Positions 154 through 49,159 of a stretch of 49,718 nt of DNA are shown here, piece after piece. The translations under genes were made by a program, and so were the position numbers. The first letter of the stretch is position 1. Each line of letters starts with the position of its first letter. Source of the stretch: a virus; the IMG/VR virus record IMGVR_UViG_3300031692_000140, positions 1 to 49,718 of that record. One strand, written 5' to 3'. The notes below the pieces were generated by a model that was given only the letters and a program-made list of their open reading frames with translations, was not told the DNA's origin and did no database searches.

Positions 154-230
154 TTTCAATCCTTTCTATAATTTATTAATTGATTTATCAAACTTTTTAC
201 ATACCACATAGTTAATATAAAACCCCTGAT

Positions 231-3541: not shown

Positions 3542-4108
3542 TTATTTTTTAGTTTGCCAGCTATATATTTTATATCCTTTTCTAGCAAATTCATTCCAGT
3601 AAACAACATAAAAAGTTGCCTGTCCTACTTGTTCTTTATTTGTTCCGTTAACAGCTGAATATCCTTTATCAATATATTCAATTATATCTTTAGTTTTTGC
3701 AATTGCACATGTCATCAAATTATTATTGCTCTTACGTATATAAGCATGTACAGTATAAAAAGGATATAAATAACCATTTTTAATTGCATATTTTCTTTTT
3801 TCAAATTCTGTTAATACTCCTGATTCTCTTTGTTTTCTTATTGTAAAAGTATTAAATGATTTGGCATTTGGAAACTTAATATCATCGATAATCTGAATTC
3901 TACTTGCAATTCCTCGCAATCCTCTTTCAAAATCAATATGCCAAGAATCAATTCCACTTAATTGGTCTAGTATTAATTTCATTTTATCAGTAGTTTGACC
4001 TTCAACAATTAAAAATTCTCCTTTTAATATTTTAGCTATTCTAGGTTTAATTATTTGTTCAAATCGATTACTACTTAATGTTAAATCATTCATAACTGTT
4101 TTATTCAT
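3542..4108 (-). CDS. Hypothetical protein between methyltransferase and portal
   Basis: A 188-residue protein, not recognised. It is basic and appears globular, with a conserved-looking segment SWHIDFERGLRGIASRIQ and a later YIRKSNN. Its ATG overlaps the last codons of the ParB-methyltransferase gene by eight bases, so the two are probably translationally coupled and may act together. A virion or DNA-processing role is possible. No catalytic motif is clear enough to name. Confidence 0.7.
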   Translation of the reverse strand: MNKTVMNDLTLSSNRFEQIIKPRIAKILKGEFLIVEGQTTDKMKLILDQLSGIDSWHIDFERGLRGIASRIQIIDDIKFPNAKSFNTFTIRKQRESGVLTEFEKRKYAIKNGYLYPFYTVHAYIRKSNNNLMTCAIAKTKDIIEYIDKGYSAVNGTNKEQVGQATFYVVYWNEFARKGYKIYSWQTKK

Positions 4109-5309
4109 TTAATTTACACCCTCTTTTAATTGCAATTTCAACATTTTCTTTATTTATATCGCATCCAAAACCTTTTCTATTTAGCTTATTTGAAGCAATT
4201 ATAAAAGTTCCAGTACATGTAAATGGGTCTAAAACAATATCGTTTTCTTTAGTTGAATGTCTTATTAATCTTTCTGCTAATTCAAGCGGTTTTTGCCATG
4301 TATGATATCTATCCCCTATTCTACCATCAGGAGCATTAATCGATTGAACTGCCCATTGTTCATTAGTAATAGGACAATCAAAATATTTATTTTCAATACC
4401 TTTATAAAATAAAATATTTTGATAATTTAATTTATATCTATCTTTAGGGTTATTGCCTAATGTATTTTTATATTCCCATACTAATATTTGTTCTAATCTA
4501 ATATGTTTTGAAATTTTTGCGTTTAAATAAGCTTTTACTTCATTTGGATATGCTCCAATAAATATATATGCAGCTCCTGTTGGTTTAACTTTTGTTAATG
4601 CTTTAAATAACCACTCATTTACAAATTTATCAATATCTTCGATATCTGTTGAGTATGGTGGGTCAGTTAAAAGTAAATCACAGCCATTCATTTTAGATAA
4701 CCAAGTTGAATATGATTCATTGTAGATAATCGGCTTATTGTCTTCGATTACCTGATTAGTTTGTTTTAGTATTTGCTGTTTCTTTGATTCCAAATCTTTC
4801 TTCTTTTTCTCTTTGTTAATTTCTCGCTTAGTTGTCTCTCCCTTTAAAATCTTTTCGGCTACCTCTGGATTATCTTCAACAAATTTACCATCTCTTCTAA
4901 TTGTTTTTTCTGATACTTTGTATTTTTCGCCTAATTTTTCAGCTGTTTTTAACTTGTGGTCAACTTGACCACAAGTTAAATCACTTCTTTTTCCCTGTTC
5001 TGTGCTTAGATTATATAATTTTCCCCTTATAATGCTCATTTGATCAGGATTTAAGTTTCTTCTACTTAACTGGTTCATAAGTATCCATTCAACAACAGTA
5101 GACCTGCTATCGAAAGGCAGCTCTTTGGTATCATATAACAGTCCATGCCTACAAGCTATTTCATATCTATTATGGCCATCAATTATAATACCTTGCCATG
5201 TTTTTATACTATCCTGAATACCTCTTTCAAGGCAGCTCTGTTCAAGTCCTGTAAATTCTTCATGAGTTAATGCTGGTATTAAATTTTTAAATTCATTATC
5301 TATTTTCAT
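4101..5309 (-). CDS. ParB-domain / DNA methyltransferase fusion
   Basis: A 402-residue protein. Residues 1-100 form a ParB/Sulfiredoxin-like domain with the IDGHNR motif (43-48). Residues 110-190 are a charged linker with a helix-turn-helix-like segment (AEKLGEKYKVSEKTIRR). Residues 195-402 are an S-adenosylmethionine-dependent amino-methyltransferase with catalytic DPPY (216-219) and the motif DPFTCTGTF (361-369), in the order of beta-class N6-adenine/N4-cytosine enzymes. It probably methylates phage DNA against host restriction; the target sequence is unknown. I chose the ATG at 5309 over an earlier in-frame ATG because GGAGG lies seven bases before it. The gene has its own promoter and a structured leader. 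Confidence 0.88.
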   Translation of the reverse strand: MKIDNEFKNLIPALTHEEFTGLEQSCLERGIQDSIKTWQGIIIDGHNRYEIACRHGLLYDTKELPFDSRSTVVEWILMNQLSRRNLNPDQMSIIRGKLYNLSTEQGKRSDLTCGQVDHKLKTAEKLGEKYKVSEKTIRRDGKFVEDNPEVAEKILKGETTKREINKEKKKKDLESKKQQILKQTNQVIEDNKPIIYNESYSTWLSKMNGCDLLLTDPPYSTDIEDIDKFVNEWLFKALTKVKPTGAAYIFIGAYPNEVKAYLNAKISKHIRLEQILVWEYKNTLGNNPKDRYKLNYQNILFYKGIENKYFDCPITNEQWAVQSINAPDGRIGDRYHTWQKPLELAERLIRHSTKENDIVLDPFTCTGTFIIASNKLNRKGFGCDINKENVEIAIKRGCKLNE

Positions 5310-5326
5310 ATATTCCTCCAAATAAA

Positions 5327-5425
5327 AAAGTTTTACATATGCCAAAGTTCCCGCCTCGACATATATAAAACTTTATTGTATTTTCATACAATATGCATAG
5401 GGCGGGAATCAATGCATATTGTATG
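5327..5425 (-). ncRNA. Leader with two kissing hairpins upstream of methyltransferase
   Basis: Read on the minus strand. Hairpin 1 has 14-bp perfect arms (5412-5425 and 5385-5398) around a 13-base loop. Hairpin 2 has 15-bp arms (5360-5374 and 5327-5341, one G-U pair) around an 18-base loop. Loop 1 contains TTCCCGCC (5401-5408 on the plus strand as GGCGGGAA) and loop 2 contains the exact complement (5348-5355), so an 8-bp loop-loop helix can form in an otherwise AT-rich region. Hairpin 2 runs into a U-rich tract and then GGAGG and the ATG at 5309. A cis-acting attenuator or translation switch is inferred. Confidence 0.6.
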
Positions 5426-5433
5426 TTGATTAT

Positions 5434-5461
5434 ATTATAACATTGATTCCCATATAATCAA
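5434..5461 (-). promoter_or_regulatory. Promoter of the methyltransferase gene
   Basis: On the minus strand TTGATT and TATAAT are separated by 16 bases (-35 at 5456-5461, -10 at 5434-5439). Transcription would start just before the first leader hairpin at 5425. A 10-bp inverted repeat (5405-5414 with 5441-5450, GGAATCAATG/CATTGATTCC) has one arm in the promoter spacer and the other in the leader, so it could be a DNA operator. Confidence 0.55.
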
Positions 5462-14047: not shown

Positions 14048-14086
14048 AGTTATTTCCTCCTAAAAATTTAATTTACTTACAAATAT

Positions 14087-14115
14087 ATTGTATCACGTTG
14101 CATGTATTATGTAAA
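14087..14115 (-). promoter_or_regulatory. Shared-type promoter, copy 5
   Basis: On the minus strand TTTACA and TACAAT are 17 bases apart with the spacer TAATACATGCAACGTGA. It serves the 14047 gene and marks the left edge of the non-coding region. Confidence 0.75.
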
Positions 14116-14271
14116 TATACAATAATATATTCTTTTGATATATTAAATATATAATTATTAGTCTGTAATTATTTACGACTCCCACATATCAATATATTTA
14201 TTTTAATTTAGATGATTTCATCTTTTTTTTTATCAGTTAATAAAATACTATTATCGATACTTTTAATTAAT

Positions 14272-14712
14272 TGAAACTTTTCTTAAAACAAATCATCATA
14301 AATCTATTAAAAATCAGTGAGTGAAACTTTTCAGGTTTCACTCAAAAACAAGGTCAAACATAGTTATATCAACTGATATAAGGAATTCTTGTTTTTGAGT
14401 GAAACCTGCTGAAACCTGCCCAAGTTTCAGCTGTATCTATTGATATGACTGCACTTGACCTTGTTTTTTATACTGAAACCTAAAAAAAAAACACAATATA
14501 TATATATATAAATATTTATGTATACATATGTATATATTACATACATATAATGTATATACGTATACATATGTATACATTACCTCACGCATATATATATAGT
14601 ATATATATATATAAGTTTCATGGTTTCAATATATATATATATAAGTAATAGATTGATTTATATGAAACCTATATGAAACTTTTGTGAAACCTGACCCTAA
14701 AAAAAAGTTTCA
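14272..14712. other. Putative replication origin with iterons
   Basis: No gene fits 14116-14993. Within 14272-14712 I count 13 copies of TGAAAC/GTTTCA (direct: 14272, 14322, 14400, 14410, 14474, 14663, 14674, 14685; reverse: 14335, 14424, 14615, 14623, 14707), often extended to GTGAAACCTG. They lie inside inverted repeats: 14319-14327/14335-14343, 14334-14352/14388-14406 (19 bp, perfect) and 14344-14357/14455-14468 (14 bp). A TA-run at 14490-14645 could be the unwinding region. The primase-helicase gene follows. The function is inferred from structure and position. Confidence 0.65.
14334..14406. repeat. 19-bp inverted repeat in the origin region
   Basis: Arms 14334-14352 and 14388-14406 are exact complements, each holding one TGAAAC box and an A5/T5 run. 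The 35-base spacer contains a smaller dyad, TTATATCA-AC-TGATATAA. Confidence 0.85.
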
Positions 14713-14922
14713 CTCGTATTTTATAGACTCTTTTCTCTTTAAATGATAAGGTTTTAAAACAGATTAATTTATTTCGCTCAAAAACATGTCTAGAATTGAT
14801 TTAAATTTCAAAGGTATAATTCTGAGTAAATAATCTAAATAATAAGCTGTGCTTAAAATTTAATGTATAGAAATATATTCTATTGATATTTGTTTGAAGT
14901 AGAAGTTTTATTTTATTAGTTA

Positions 14923-14951
14923 TTGATTTTACTTAGTAGTTACATTATAAT
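14923..14951 (+). promoter_or_regulatory. Promoter of the plus-strand replication operon
   Basis: TTGATT (14923-14928) and TATAAT (14946-14951) are 17 bases apart, about 40 bases before the ATG at 14994. It is of a different type from the shared minus-strand promoters. Confidence 0.65.
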
Positions 14952-14993
14952 GATAATACTTAATAATACTACTAGATTGGAGAAATATTTAAT

Positions 14994-18936: not shown

Positions 18937-19224
18937 TTATACTTTTCTCATTTCATTTTCATTATTACAATAAACATAGTTTCTTCCATTTGATTCAATT
19001 AAATACATATTATCGAAACCTACTAATTTAATAGTTCCAACAATTTCATTATTGAAATTTCTATCAATTTTTATACCATCTATACTTTTTCCAAATATCA
19101 TCTTATTATAATCATATGTATTATAATTATGCAGACCTTTTATATATTCATCCGCTGATATAATTATTGAATCACCAACATTAAATTCTTCCTGCGGACC
19201 CGCAGTTAAATCAAAATCACTCAT
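18937..19224 (-). CDS. Hypothetical protein
   Basis: A 95-residue protein with a likely beta-rich C-terminal half (KLVGFDNMYLIESNGRNYVY). I chose the ATG at 19224 (MSDFDLTAG) because AAGGAG lies seven bases before it; an earlier in-frame ATG at 19248 lacks a site. It overlaps the end of the upstream membrane-protein gene by eight bases, so the two are coupled. Confidence 0.6.
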   Translation of the reverse strand: MSDFDLTAGPQEEFNVGDSIIISADEYIKGLHNYNTYDYNKMIFGKSIDGIKIDRNFNNEIVGTIKLVGFDNMYLIESNGRNYVYCNNENEMRKV

Positions 19225-19450
19225 TATTTTCTCCTTCAGCTTCATCATTTAATATTTCAGAATAATCTATAATTTTACTATCAATAAGATTATTTTGATT
19301 AAAGTTAATAAAGAAATTAAATAAATATAGTAAAACAGCAAGTTTCCATCCATAGTTATAACATATCAATGTATAAATAATTATTCCCATAATAGCAGCT
19401 ATAACATTATTTATTAATAATCTTCTTTTAACTTTCTTTTCATTAATCAT
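19217..19450 (-). CDS. Small membrane protein
   Basis: A 77-residue protein with two hydrophobic segments (about residues 12-32 and 35-48), a basic N terminus and an acidic C-terminal tail, so both ends are probably cytoplasmic. It overlaps the flanking genes on both sides. Unknown function; two-helix phage membrane proteins can be holins or superinfection-exclusion proteins, but nothing here decides it. Confidence 0.6.
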   Translation of the reverse strand: MINEKKVKRRLLINNVIAAIMGIIIYTLICYNYGWKLAVLLYLFNFFINFNQNNLIDSKIIDYSEILNDEAEGENNE

Positions 19451-23848: not shown

Positions 23849-24316
23849 TTAGTTTTTACAAGATAATTCATTAATATATCTTATAAAAACTGAACAAATA
23901 TAATTCGCTGAATCGTTACTATCTCTAAATACTACATATATTCCATGTTTTCTTTTCCAGCTGTTTAAACTTCCCAGAATAGCGTTAGGATGGACTTTAT
24001 TTCTATAATCATGACTTTCTATTCTTTCAATACTTCCATTTTCAATTAATAAAATAAATATTGACCTTGCTTCTACAGCTCTTTGTATTTCAGCTTTTAA
24101 TCGTTTACGTTTTATTCCAACAATACATCCAGCTAATTCAGTCAAACAATATTTTCGTTCAATAACTATTTTATTTTCAAATGATAGACCTTTATAAAAA
24201 AAAGAATAATCCCCAAAATCTAATTTTTGCTTTTTAATTTTTATGCCATTTGCAATTAATCTTTTTTTTATATGCCATGTTTGTTGTTCTCTGGTATCCT
24301 GTATTATATCAAACAT
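23849..24316 (-). CDS. ERCC4-type nuclease
   Basis: A 155-residue single-domain nuclease of the XPF/ERCC4 fold. DTRE (7-10), FGDY (34-37) and IVIERK (50-55) form the metal site; the Asp expected after ERK is replaced by Glu at residue 60 (CLTEL). In phages, such nucleases process branched or single-strand/double-strand junctions in recombination. It lies in the same region as RecD-like and RecT genes. It has its own promoter, an unusual kissing-hairpin leader, and GAGGT before the ATG. Confidence 0.8.
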   Translation of the reverse strand: MFDIIQDTREQQTWHIKKRLIANGIKIKKQKLDFGDYSFFYKGLSFENKIVIERKYCLTELAGCIVGIKRKRLKAEIQRAVEARSIFILLIENGSIERIESHDYRNKVHPNAILGSLNSWKRKHGIYVVFRDSNDSANYICSVFIRYINELSCKN

Positions 24317-24333
24317 ATTTTACCTCAAAATAA

Positions 24334-24436
24334 AAAGTATTCATTAATCAATGGTTTGCGTCCTCTTGATTAATGAATACTTTATAGTTCTTTATATGAA
24401 CTTTGTTATGGGACGCATACATAACAAAACTCATAT
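24334..24436 (-). ncRNA. Leader with two kissing hairpins upstream of the ERCC4 nuclease
   Basis: On the minus strand, hairpin 1 has an inner 9-bp stem (24402-24410 with 24420-24428), a 6-bp extension (24394-24399 with 24431-24436) and a loop with TGCGTCC. Hairpin 2 has a perfect 18-bp stem (24334-24351 with 24366-24383) and a loop with the exact complement GGACGCA (plus strand: 24357-24363 and 24411-24417). The second stem is followed by a U-rich tract, GAGGT and the ATG at 24316. The layout repeats that of 5327-5425 with different stem sequences. Confidence 0.65.
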
Positions 24437-24447
24437 TAATTTATTTT

Positions 24448-24476
24448 AGGATACCAAAGAACTTTTATTTTGTCAA
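24448..24476 (-). promoter_or_regulatory. Promoter of the ERCC4 nuclease
   Basis: TTGACA (24471-24476) and TATCCT (24448-24453) on the minus strand are 17 bases apart. Transcription would begin just before hairpin 1 of the leader. The -35 abuts the stop codon of the upstream gene. Confidence 0.55.
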
Positions 24477-24803
24477 TTAATTTATTAATTCATCAATAAA
24501 ATTTAATACTTTTTTTCTTTCTTCATTTCTAAATTCATTAATGTAAATAATTTCATTATCATTTAATAGTTCTTCAATTGATTTTTTTAAAGCTTTTAAT
24601 TCAGTAAAATGTATATCAATATCAGTCAAAAATTCTGCTATTAATTCTTTTTTTATATCAATTTCATTAATATCATTAACTTTTTTTAATATAGCACTCA
24701 TGTTAGAAGTATCAATTGCTTGTAGTTCCTCATGATATTTTAATAACTCTTCTTTAATTTCTTTCTTTTTCTGCATATATTTATTTTTTATATTCATCCT
24801 CAT
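24477..24803 (-). CDS. Hypothetical coiled-coil protein
   Basis: A 108-residue, Lys/Glu/Ile-rich, mostly helical protein. The true start may be the second Met (ATG at 24797), which has a better distance to AAGGAG. It overlaps the upstream gene. Not recognised. Confidence 0.55.
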   Translation of the reverse strand: MRMNIKNKYMQKKKEIKEELLKYHEELQAIDTSNMSAILKKVNDINEIDIKKELIAEFLTDIDIHFTELKALKKSIEELLNDNEIIYINEFRNEERKKVLNFIDELIN

Positions 24804-45858: not shown

Positions 45859-46365
45859 TTAACACTCCTTTTCATAGTTAGAACTATCTGGTGGGCGACA
45901 ATATATACTAATAAGTCCTACATGATTAAAAGCCCATTTATATGTTTTGAAATCATCTAATGGTATCCATCTAACCTCTTCAACTTCGCCATAATTTGCA
46001 TTTTCAATAGTTAATGTTAAGTCTTTTATATTTTCTGATAATGAACAAATAAATCTTATTGTTACATTTTGTCGTCCAAATGGAACGCTATCGATGCCAA
46101 TTAAAGAAAATTCTTCCTCATTAATTCTAAGGCCTGTCTCTTCAAAAGTTTCTCTGCATATAGCCTTTTCACATGTTTCGTTAAAATCTAAATATCCACA
46201 AGGGAGACACCAATATCCCTGAAAATCTGGAGTATTAACCCCCCTTTTATTTGCTAATATATACCAATGCCAATTATCATCATGGGCCATAATTAACCCA
46301 ACAACGGCGACCGACCTGGAATACCAATATTTTTTACCCTTGTAATCAAATTCAAAATTATTCAT
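45859..46365 (-). CDS. NUDIX hydrolase
   Basis: A 168-residue nucleoside-diphosphate-linked hydrolase. The full NUDIX box GX5EX7REUXEEXGU is seen at residues 57-79 (GYLDFNE, then CREtFEETGL). The fold starts at KYWYSRSVAVVGLIM. It could clean up modified nucleotides or ADP-ribose-type signals. It is flanked by 44-bp direct repeats, so it may be an inserted gene. Confidence 0.88.
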   Translation of the reverse strand: MNNFEFDYKGKKYWYSRSVAVVGLIMAHDDNWHWYILANKRGVNTPDFQGYWCLPCGYLDFNETCEKAICRETFEETGLRINEEEFSLIGIDSVPFGRQNVTIRFICSLSENIKDLTLTIENANYGEVEEVRWIPLDDFKTYKWAFNHVGLISIYCRPPDSSNYEKEC

Positions 46366-46384
46366 TTGTGATTCCTTTCTATTG

Positions 46385-46428
46385 CTTTATTTTTATATTA
46401 TTGATTGTAAAATTATTTACTTGTTAAA
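46385..46428. repeat. 44-bp direct repeat, copy B (at the primase 3' end)
   Basis: Includes the primase stop codon (46417-46419) and its last codons. Together with copy A it encloses the NUDIX gene. Confidence 0.85.
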
Positions 46429-47499
46429 ATTCTTTACATTGTTAACTATCTTTCTTATTTCATGGGAAAAAAAATCTTTTTCACATTTTAAATAAAATTC
46501 ATTTGCATCTTTATAGCCTTTTAATCTCATAATAAAGCACATTATCCCCATTTTTCTAATGTTAGTATCAAGTGTTTGAATTGCATCTTCCCCAGCTGAA
46601 TCATTATCACAACAAATTATAAATTTAATTTTTCTTTGAACTAATAAAACATTATAACTTTTAATATATGTTATAAATGTATTGACCATTGATGTTGAAT
46701 TAAGTACGATACATTTATATTTCATTTGTTCAAATGTTAAACCATCAAATATTCCTTCAGTTATAAATATAATATCATTATCTTTTGCATATTTAATATA
46801 ATCTAAATTACATATTTTTAATGGCAAATTTTTCAAATTTAAAACTTTTGCATTATTTTGCGAATATTTATCGTCTCTTCTTAAAATACAATTTACAACT
46901 TTTCCATCTTCCCATACAGGAATAATATTTCTGTATGCATATAAATTATAAAATTGAGGCAATAGTTGTAAAGGAAATACATTTTTAGGATTACTAATAA
47001 TTATTTTATATTTACTAAATATATTTAAAGATGTTATTCCCCTACTATAAAAATACTTATATTGCCATGTCTTTGTTTTTTTATAATTTTCTGTTATTAT
47101 ATTAGTTAAATTAAAATTTTGTATATCTTTATATTGTTTTTTAATTGAGTTCTCAGCTTTTATTTGTTTATTATTATTTTTATTAATTGTGACTTCATTC
47201 GTGGGGTCACAATTAAGTATTTGAAGACCTCTTTCTACTAATTTACTAAAGTCTTTATAAACATCATATCCTTCAATTTCAGCAATAACATTAAATGAAT
47301 CTCCCTTTAGTCCACAATGACAACAACATACATTTTCTTTAACTGATAAATCATTTTTCGGTGTTTTGTGTCTACTTTTTAAACATGTCCAATTAGGGGA
47401 TGATTCTTCTGCACCATAATAAGTTAATATAGCTCTTAAATTATTTTTTACTTTCTGTTTATCTTCATAAGTAAAAAATGGTTTTCCTTTTTTATTCAT
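46417..47499 (-). CDS. DnaG-type primase
   Basis: A 360-residue primase: CHC2-type zinc finger (C39, H44, C59, C62) at the N terminus, a linker, and a TOPRIM domain with IFITEGIFDG (E245) and DNDSAG (295-300). It makes RNA primers for lagging-strand synthesis. The third TOPRIM acidic residue is not obvious. It lies behind a coiled-coil gene in the cassette between portal and capsid operons. Confidence 0.85.
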   Translation of the reverse strand: MNKKGKPFFTYEDKQKVKNNLRAILTYYGAEESSPNWTCLKSRHKTPKNDLSVKENVCCCHCGLKGDSFNVIAEIEGYDVYKDFSKLVERGLQILNCDPTNEVTINKNNNKQIKAENSIKKQYKDIQNFNLTNIITENYKKTKTWQYKYFYSRGITSLNIFSKYKIIISNPKNVFPLQLLPQFYNLYAYRNIIPVWEDGKVVNCILRRDDKYSQNNAKVLNLKNLPLKICNLDYIKYAKDNDIIFITEGIFDGLTFEQMKYKCIVLNSTSMVNTFITYIKSYNVLLVQRKIKFIICCDNDSAGEDAIQTLDTNIRKMGIMCFIMRLKGYKDANEFYLKCEKDFFSHEIRKIVNNVKNFNK

Positions 47500-47513
47500 T
47501 TGAAAGTCATCTC

Positions 47514-48074
47514 CTATAATTCTTTTATAGTCAGTTCTAAATCAGTTAAATAAAAATATGCACTGACTATTTCCCCAGTTTTATTATATACAATATCTTT
47601 GTCTTTAATACTTAGCGAATCTATTAATTCTTTTTCTTTTAACTTTTCATCAACTATATATTCAGGACAATTCTTATTTATCCATGATACTAATTTATAC
47701 ATATCTTTTATCTTTATTTGCTGTTTTTTAATAATTATTTTAGACATAGGCAATCTATAATAAATATGAGTTGAATCCTGTTCTAATAAATTTACGGAAA
47801 TTGTTTCTTCGTCTATTGCTTCTTTTAACCATGTCATTATATTCATTTTTACAGTATTATCGATAAATTCAAATCTCTCCTCAGCAACTTTTATTTTTTT
47901 ATTATAGTTTGATATCATTCCATTACAAACTTTAATATATTTCTGAGCTTTATATTTTGATTCTTTTATTTTTTCAATTTCCTGTTCTAATAATATATCT
48001 AATGATATATTACTATCTAATTTTTTATTATTTTCAAATGAATTATTATTATTTTCATCTATAAAATTAATCAT
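47514..48074 (-). CDS. Coiled-coil protein, Gam/Gp157-like
   Basis: A 186-residue protein with a Lys/Glu coiled coil (about 28-75) and a basic C-terminal half ending FYLTDLELTIKEL. The layout resembles the phage Gam or siphovirus Gp157 families, which accompany recombination genes, but the resemblance is loose. Its stop lies 12 bases before the primase start. Confidence 0.5.
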   Translation of the reverse strand: MINFIDENNNNSFENNKKLDSNISLDILLEQEIEKIKESKYKAQKYIKVCNGMISNYNKKIKVAEERFEFIDNTVKMNIMTWLKEAIDEETISVNLLEQDSTHIYYRLPMSKIIIKKQQIKIKDMYKLVSWINKNCPEYIVDEKLKEKELIDSLSIKDKDIVYNKTGEIVSAYFYLTDLELTIKEL

Positions 48075-48089
48075 TTAATTATCCTCTCA

Positions 48090-48239
48090 TTATTTATTTT
48101 CTTTCTTCCAAGTATTATTGCAGTTTCTACAGAAATAATTTGTATATTTACCGATAATATTACCGGTTTTATCTCTTTTTAATTCTGTGCCTGTTATAAC
48201 TGTATTATTACTTTCACAACGTGGACATTTATTTTCCAT
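48090..48239 (-). CDS. Small zinc-ribbon protein
   Basis: A 49-residue protein with CPRC (5-8) and CRNC (about 37-40), a Lys/Arg-rich body and a NYFCRNCNNTW motif. Too short to have been predicted by length filters. ATTAAAATGG-type start with a weak site; a stop just before the next gene. Probably nucleic-acid binding. Confidence 0.7.
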   Translation of the reverse strand: MENKCPRCESNNTVITGTELKRDKTGNIIGKYTNYFCRNCNNTWKKENK

Positions 48240-48240
48240 T

Positions 48241-48672
48241 TTAATTCTCCAATTCTCTTATATATTTTAAATATTTTTCTCTTAATGATACATTATTTGT
48301 AAAAAATATAATATTCTTTTCTCTAAAAATATTATTAAATAACCTCTCCCCTAAAAATATTTCCATCTTTGCAGCTTGATTATTATTATCAAATATATAA
48401 ATACAACAATACTCATCAAAATTTATATAATTTAAATCATTAATACTTTCATCATAGAATTCAATATTATTTTCTTTTAATGGCCCATCTATAAAAAGGA
48501 TTTTATCTTTTTCTACCTTCAGCAATGATATATTTTTAGTTTTTAACAATGTTACTAATTCTTTCTTTTTATATGTTGATTCTTTAAATATATTACTAAG
48601 TGTAATTATAGTACTAATACATAGTAACGATAGTATAATTGATATAACACTTGATTTATTTAACTTATTCAT
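48241..48672 (-). CDS. Membrane-anchored hypothetical protein
   Basis: A 143-residue protein with one N-terminal membrane helix (about residues 8-28), and a hydrophilic domain with strands (KDKILFIDGPL, EYCCIYIFDN) outside. I chose ATG at 48672, where AGTGAGGAT precedes it, over an in-frame upstream Met inside the XRE gene. It overlaps that gene by eight bases. Not recognised. Confidence 0.55.
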   Translation of the reverse strand: MNKLNKSSVISIILSLLCISTIITLSNIFKESTYKKKELVTLLKTKNISLLKVEKDKILFIDGPLKENNIEFYDESINDLNYINFDEYCCIYIFDNNNQAAKMEIFLGERLFNNIFREKNIIFFTNNVSLREKYLKYIRELEN

Positions 48673-49159
48673 TATTATCCTCACTCTTCTCAAATAACAT
48701 TGATTTTGATACATCTAATACTTTCGCAATTTTCGATATTAAAGACTTTTCTATTGTTCTTTCATTCTTTTCAATTCTTCCAAGTAATTGATAATCGATA
48801 TCTACTTTTTCTGCGAGTTCTCTAATAAGAAGTCCTCTCCAAATTCTTAGTTTTCTAATACAATTTACTTTCATTATTCCTTCAGAAACAATTAATGGCT
48901 TTATTTTTGGACAAAGTTTATCAACTATTTCTCTATATACTTCATTTAGAGAACCTCTGAAAATTAAATTATTTTTAATATGTGATTTTTTATAATGTTT
49001 TGATCTGTTATACTCAAAAACAAATTTATTATCATTCTCAAAATAATACAAAACAATAGATTTATTGAAATATTTAATTGTTATCATTTTTATTTTTTGA
49101 TTCTGCATATTTCTTAATACATCATAAAGCTTTTTATTATTACTTTTTCTAAAATACAT
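48665..49159 (-). CDS. XRE-type regulator with an N-terminal domain
   Basis: A 164-residue protein. The last 65 residues form an HTH_3 domain (RKLRIWRGLLIRELAEKVDI, then YQLLGRIEKNERT and KIAKVLDVSKSMLF). The first 95 residues are basic with strands and are unassigned. I chose ATG at 49159, at a proper distance from AAAGGAA; a GTG upstream would lie too close to it. It may be a repressor or late-gene regulator. Confidence 0.72.
   Translation of the reverse strand: MYFRKSNNKKLYDVLRNMQNQKIKMITIKYFNKSIVLYYFENDNKFVFEYNRSKHYKKSHIKNNLIFRGSLNEVYREIVDKLCPKIKPLIVSEGIMKVNCIRKLRIWRGLLIRELAEKVDIDYQLLGRIEKNERTIEKSLISKIAKVLDVSKSMLFEKSEDNNE

Follow-up and report, generated by a model that had tools for sequence, protein, structure and literature searches.

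Kissing-hairpin leader RNAs before an ERCC4-type nuclease and DNA methyltransferases in a small phage lineage

The window analysed here is the whole 49,718-nucleotide stretch of the virus record IMGVR_UViG_3300031692_000140. Within it, an ERCC4-type nuclease gene and a DNA methyltransferase gene are each preceded by a leader containing two hairpins with complementary ("kissing") loops. The features of the two loci, all on the minus strand, are as follows, in the order in which they would be transcribed.

24448..24476, minus strand: promoter-like sequence TTGACA-17-TATCCT, with a predicted start about 3-5 nt before hairpin 1
24394..24436, minus strand: hairpin 1 (HP1), 17 bp including G-U pairs, 9-nt loop TATGCGTCC; the covariance model R1, described below, matches 24319-24436
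24411..24417, minus strand: HP1 kissing sequence TGCGTCC
24384..24393, minus strand: HP1-HP2 linker, 10 nt
24334..24383, minus strand: hairpin 2 (HP2), a perfect 18 bp, loop GAGGACGCAAACCA, terminator-like (d-score 8.2)
24357..24363, minus strand: HP2 kissing sequence GGACGCA, directly 3' of the loop's 5' GA
24327..24333, minus strand: U tract TTATTTT
24323..24326, minus strand: Shine-Dalgarno-like GAGG
23849..24316, minus strand: ERCC4-type nuclease gene, 155 aa, ATG at 24316 (Pfam PF02732, 2e-16; PHROG 3490, 3e-36)
5434..5461, minus strand: promoter-like sequence TTGATT-16-TATAAT of the sister leader
5385..5425, minus strand: sister HP1, 14 bp, loop TGATTCCCGCCCT, kissing sequence TCCCGCC at 5407-5401
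5327..5374, minus strand: sister HP2, terminator-like, loop GAGGCGGGAACTTT, kissing sequence GGCGGGA at 5355-5349
4101..5309, minus strand: ParB-like/N6-N4 DNA methyltransferase gene, 402 aa (Pfam PF01555, 6e-31)

Every part that the first-pass annotation had listed for the nuclease leader, from the promoter through both hairpins, the loop complement, the U tract and the GAGG to the ATG, is present on the minus strand. The sequences TGCGTCC and GGACGCA form an exact 7-nt complement between the HP1 and HP2 loops. The same annotation had held that hairpins lying within a translated region would count against its reading; here the preceding ORF stops at 24477, which makes the leader intergenic and untranslated. 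Its minimum free energy is -43.8 kcal/mol (z -6.8), and none of 200 shuffles was equally stable. The sister leader, at 5461-5310, precedes the methyltransferase gene. Since the products carry a DNA methylase domain (PF01555) and an ERCC4 domain (PF02732), the suggestion that both genes act on phage DNA fits, and it is possible that their leaders share a regulatory signal.

The genome is AT-rich and its hairpins are numerous, and two palindromes might therefore have acquired matching loops by accident. A detector that scores two hairpins at short distance with complementary loops gave 47.9 for the nuclease leader and 46.9 for the sister leader, against a best score of 33.5 among 158 dinucleotide-preserving shuffles of the window. 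In a scan of further phage and bacterial DNA, approximately 3.0 Mb in all, the only score of 38 or more outside the family described below belonged to a GC-rich CCCCTTCGGGG repeat in L266, followed by the phage contig L027 at 37.6. Both window leaders score higher on the sense than on the antisense strand. This difference is due to G-U pairs, as expected for RNA. Given these scores and the relatives described next, which by themselves already refute it, chance can be dismissed for practical purposes.

Two colinear phages provide the relatives. G001, the 26 kb viral contig behind L003, shares most of its common genes with the window at 35-75% amino-acid identity, and its ERCC4 orthologue (52% identity) is preceded by a two-hairpin leader that also kisses but differs in sequence, with loops ATTGGCCTC and GAGAGGCCATTGA. 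The third colinear phage, G793, is the 55.9 kb record behind L016. Its positions 48631-48732 are a clear homologue of the window methyltransferase leader, with a perfect TTGACA-17-TATAAT promoter that ends just before HP1, and the position of HP1 relative to the -10 element is alike in the window and G793 leaders. The gene that follows encodes a different methyltransferase (483 aa, PF01555), with only about 25% identity to the window enzyme over the catalytic domain. The place of the methyltransferase leader among neighbouring genes also differs between the two phages, so that leader and gene look like a movable cassette. A lack of similar pairs in related phages had been named in advance as the outcome that would overturn the idea of a selected structure; as the leaders of G001 and G793 illustrate, such pairs do occur.

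Comparison of the window and G793 methyltransferase leaders alone shows that, apart from a gap in one cell, none of the 40 named pairs is lost, and that four of them have changed on both sides (one in HP1, one in the kiss and two in HP2); in slid controls of the same two leaders, only 28-52% of cells pair. A covariance model built from these two leaders only (R1; window 5311-5426 plus G793) recovers both ERCC4 leaders on the correct strand, the window's at 59.5 bits (E 8e-9) and that of G001 at 52.2 bits (E 2e-7). Across 142 kb of related phages it found no other strong sense match; the antisense copies of the leaders came next, and all others scored at most 21 bits.

In the four leaders, the 13-nt region between the HP1 arms reads UGAUUCCCGCCCU, UGAUUGCCGCCCA, UGUAUGCGUCCCA and UGAUUGGCCUCCA, with the kiss always at positions 5-11, and the HP2 partner is always the 7 nt after the loop's 5' GA: GGCGGGA, GGUGGCA, GGACGCA and GAGGCCA. 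In this one register 28 of 28 kissing pairs form, with two-sided compensatory changes at five of the seven positions, although the register was chosen after the match had been seen and four sequences are few. Reassigning the HP2 loops among the leaders gives at most 26 pairs, compared with 28 for the true assignment, and with the register shifted no more than 15/24 or 14/28 pairs form. The stems covary as well, at 8 of 14 HP1 pairs and 14 of 16 HP2 pairs.

Pairing that is kept while the letters change indicates a real RNA element, and that the nuclease leader is real as a structured RNA can be held with very high confidence. Judged on R1 recovery, the common register, the complete set of pairs and the compensatory changes, the four leaders from three phages are one divergent leader-RNA family selected for loop-loop pairing. 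Loop identity between ERCC4 and methyltransferase leaders is 7 to 10 of 13, above chance for the closest pairs, and makes shared descent likely. The first-pass annotation was thus strongly supported in preferring selection for structure over chance, and the common architecture that it described holds. Its description of the stems as unrelated was partly wrong, as the covariance model links the 5327 and 24334 leaders, and its "two independent examples" are probably members of one diverged family.

The same comparison bears on whether the palindromes act in DNA, as operators, cruciforms or recombination sites. They are long, perfect and close to promoters, and extra inverted repeats surround both promoters of the window leaders. 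However, the stems and kisses of the four leaders are 100% paired on the sense strand and broken in six cells on the antisense strand, a preference arising from G-U pairs; kissing covariation would be meaningless for double-stranded DNA, and the loop letters are not conserved as those of a protein site would be. A function at the DNA level is accordingly very improbable.

Further members were sought by several routes. No Rfam family fits the leaders, which gave only chance matches at gathering and relaxed thresholds; the SpF25 sRNA model (RF02432), for example, reached 30 bits against a gathering cut-off of 48, on the antisense strand of G793. The kissing-hairpin leader is apparently an undescribed RNA element. 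A tight DNA pattern search returned the G793 leader as the only true homologue, and a loose one returned random matches among the matches listed. By blastn, the leaders had no matches in phages and only short AT-rich matches in plasmids. No kissing leader was found upstream of the ERCC4 genes of approximately 145 distant ERCC4 relatives, and R1 had no match in 391 Clostridia and 395 Bacilli-class genomes (786 in total, a set that holds no positive control genome). In 50 ERCC4 phage records, model R2 gave nothing convincing, the best match being 32 bits in G824, without a kissing pair.

Some candidates were set aside. Upstream of the methyltransferase relatives in L004-L007, Rfam found a different RNA in L004 and L005: the Betaproteobacteria-1 RNA (RF02932), at L004:942-1064 and L005:1204-1326, approximately 135 nt before the ParB-methyltransferase relatives. 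The leader-like match at L009:3087-3205, which precedes the gene at L009:3208-3513, contains two hairpins, yet lacks both a kiss and a U tract. In the window itself, a third candidate at 14318-14715 proved to be an iteron-like GTTTCA repeat region of other architecture. It lies within a long AT-rich intergenic region (14050-14990) with divergent flanking genes, many GTTTCA/TGAAAC repeats and TA runs, which is iteron-like and perhaps a replication origin or operator region.

The L027 candidate (L027:2942-3039, in a phage contig of 49% G+C) consists of TTGACT-17-TACAAT, a hairpin, a terminator hairpin and the ATG of a primase-like gene. Its 8-nt kiss, AGTGGTAG, is in a different register from that of the family. 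It may be an independent example in an unrelated phage, and is treated as a lead only because it is without a close homologue and its HP1 has a stronger alternative fold.

What the kiss might do is suggested by the position of HP2. In all four leaders HP2 is terminator-like (d'Aubenton-type scores of 5.8 to 18.2) and directly precedes the Shine-Dalgarno sequence. A terminator-like hairpin with its U tract between a promoter-like sequence and the start codon is the arrangement of an attenuator leader. Transcription is predicted to start at about the foot of HP1 in the leaders of the window and G793. A steric precedent is available in the guanidine-IV riboswitch, where a rigid pair of kissing hairpins is proposed to pull the linker taut and thereby keep the outer pairs of the terminator from closing (PMC7736828), and where single-molecule work supports a model in which kiss and terminator compete (PMC11611296). 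On this basis, the leaders would act in cis, at the 5' ends of transcripts in a small phage lineage, as kissing-loop attenuators, with the kiss as antiterminator. We give this reading a probability of roughly one half.

In such an attenuator, the RNA would start at the foot of HP1 and continue through HP1, a 10-16 nt linker, and HP2 with its U tract, so that HP2 would form an intrinsic terminator just before the ribosome-binding site. As the 5' arm and loop of HP2 emerged, they would kiss HP1, the two loops forming a 7-bp helix. Owing to the short linker, the stretched complex would exclude the outermost HP2 pairs, the terminator would be incomplete and the gene would be read (ON). Were the kiss blocked, HP2 would close fully and transcription would stop (OFF). 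That the kiss forms in vivo, opposes termination and is regulated is what we infer from the four sequences and their arrangement, and the same applies to the sign of its effect and to any trigger.

Simple estimates are consistent with this model. In a straight HP1-kiss-HP2 stack, with stems of 14-18 pairs and linkers of 10-16 nt, 2-6 outer HP2 pairs cannot close. The estimated energy of the kiss outweighs the lost HP2 pairs by 2-3 kcal/mol in the window leaders and by 6-10 kcal/mol in the other two; both the geometry and the energies are crude, as loop strain and Mg are ignored. On these figures the window leaders would be near a balance between the kiss and the full HP2. Against the steric model, kissing complexes can bend, which would remove the conflict. 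Termination itself may be weak, since the part of HP2 that adjoins the U tract is rich in A and U. There are also only four leaders in three phages, and the G793 nuclease orthologue has a terminator-like hairpin before its start codon and an upstream hairpin that does not kiss it, which counts against an attenuator.

The nearness of HP1 to the transcription start also suits a different role. Strong 5' hairpins stabilise mRNAs in Firmicutes. In the leaders of the window and G793 only a few nucleotides separate HP1 from the predicted start, and the kiss could tie this hairpin, at the very 5' end, to HP2, shielding the mRNA from 5'-end-dependent decay and keeping the ribosome site open without any switching. 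This is a less probable account. It leaves unexplained the U tract right after every HP2, and covariation maintains a specific loop-loop kiss where a hairpin alone would suffice.

That U tract raises another alternative. A promoter, two hairpins and a terminator make up a complete small-RNA unit, and kissing in trans is also open to RNAs with two hairpins whose loops are complementary. The product may be a small RNA that terminates at HP2 after about 110 nt and is shaped or dimerised by the kiss, with the gene expressed only via read-through. We consider this unlikely: a ribosome site and ATG follow directly after the U tract in 4/4 leaders, and, as the two leaders of the window have different kiss sequences, no common trans target is visible.

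By mechanism, the attenuator proposed here resembles the guanidine-IV riboswitch (mepA/GGAM-1), in which a leader hairpin and a terminator hairpin are likewise joined by a kissing loop (PMC7736828, PMC11611296). It is not classed as a member of that family, as neither the conserved ligand-binding loop letters nor the gene context is found. The guanidine-binding loop nucleotides there are highly conserved, whereas the phage kiss changes its letters at five of seven positions and forms a helix of 7 bp, mostly G-C, for which no ligand is needed on paper; the genes controlled there are for efflux or guanidine metabolism, in contrast to the DNA methyltransferases and ERCC4 nucleases of the phages. 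Rfam 15, whose 4227 models perhaps do not include that family, gave no guanidine-IV match in the window at gathering thresholds or in the leaders at E-values up to 5-10.

The resemblance to two other riboswitches is less close. In the cobalamin riboswitch, the L5-L13 interaction is one in which a receptor loop kisses the loop of an expression-platform hairpin (PMC10907184), but a large conserved aptamer is present and the described case acts on translation, neither of which applies to the phage leaders. In guanidine-II (mini-ykkC), two hairpins, P1 and P2, kiss (PMC9300104), though by a very short pairing of conserved ACG trimers (PMC7736828) and with a different function.

Among phage RNAs, HK022 putRNA also has two adjacent stem-loops in early transcripts, directly after the promoter in the case of putL (PMC9378689), and a comparable RNA might bind RNA polymerase and render it termination-resistant. 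The likeness is coarse, however, and this explanation is improbable. PutRNA acts on the polymerase and on distant terminators, the text of PMC9378689 shows no kissing, other loop-loop pairing or pseudoknot for it, and its two sites share sequence similarity, while here the kiss letters are free and the pairing is kept.

Plasmid attenuators of the pT181 type also use loop-loop kissing to decide whether a leader terminator forms. Their kissing partner is an antisense RNA in trans, in contrast to the phage leaders, which would kiss in cis.

If the leaders do function as kissing-loop attenuators, they may, tentatively, constitute a new class: a self-contained cis antiterminator in which a fast-varying kiss with no ligand pocket decides terminator closure, which is portable between unrelated DNA-modifying genes, and whose copies avoid cross-talk because their kiss codes differ. 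Ligand riboswitches already offer examples of kissing between a leader hairpin and a terminator; a phage family in which covariation preserves the kiss as its letters change, possibly without any ligand, would be a clean natural test of the proposed steric mechanism. Such leaders also hint at a way for a phage to restrain genes whose products cut or modify DNA, and the differing kiss codes within a genome might be usable as naturally insulated regulators.

Both promoters of the window leaders contain complements to later segments. In the sister leader, the promoter spacer at 5441-5451 (GGGAATCAATG) is an exact 11-nt complement of the HP1 loop region at 5404-5414, and in a read-through RNA this pairing would compete with the kiss. 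In the nuclease leader, 24449-24463 (promoter spacer plus -10 element, GTTCTTTGGTATCCT, minus strand) forms a 15-nt complement to 24286-24300, the ERCC4 codons for DTRE, and 0 of 300 shuffles gave as good a complement to GTTCTTTGGTATCCT. Only in transcripts with a start further upstream could these complements play a part, and no such promoter-to-later-segment complements were found in G001.

Other observations concern the genomes more broadly. At window positions 195-223, Rfam gave one CRISPR repeat match, borderline at 45.6 bits against a cut-off of 45. The terminase ORF of G793 (46258-48591) is 823 aa in one frame compared with 495 aa in the window, perhaps reflecting an in-frame insertion such as an intein. 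Finally, the small gene at 18937-19248 in the window is 94% identical to L009:3208-3513, while the other proteins shared by those phages are mostly 35-75% identical, which points to either recent transfer or strong constraint.
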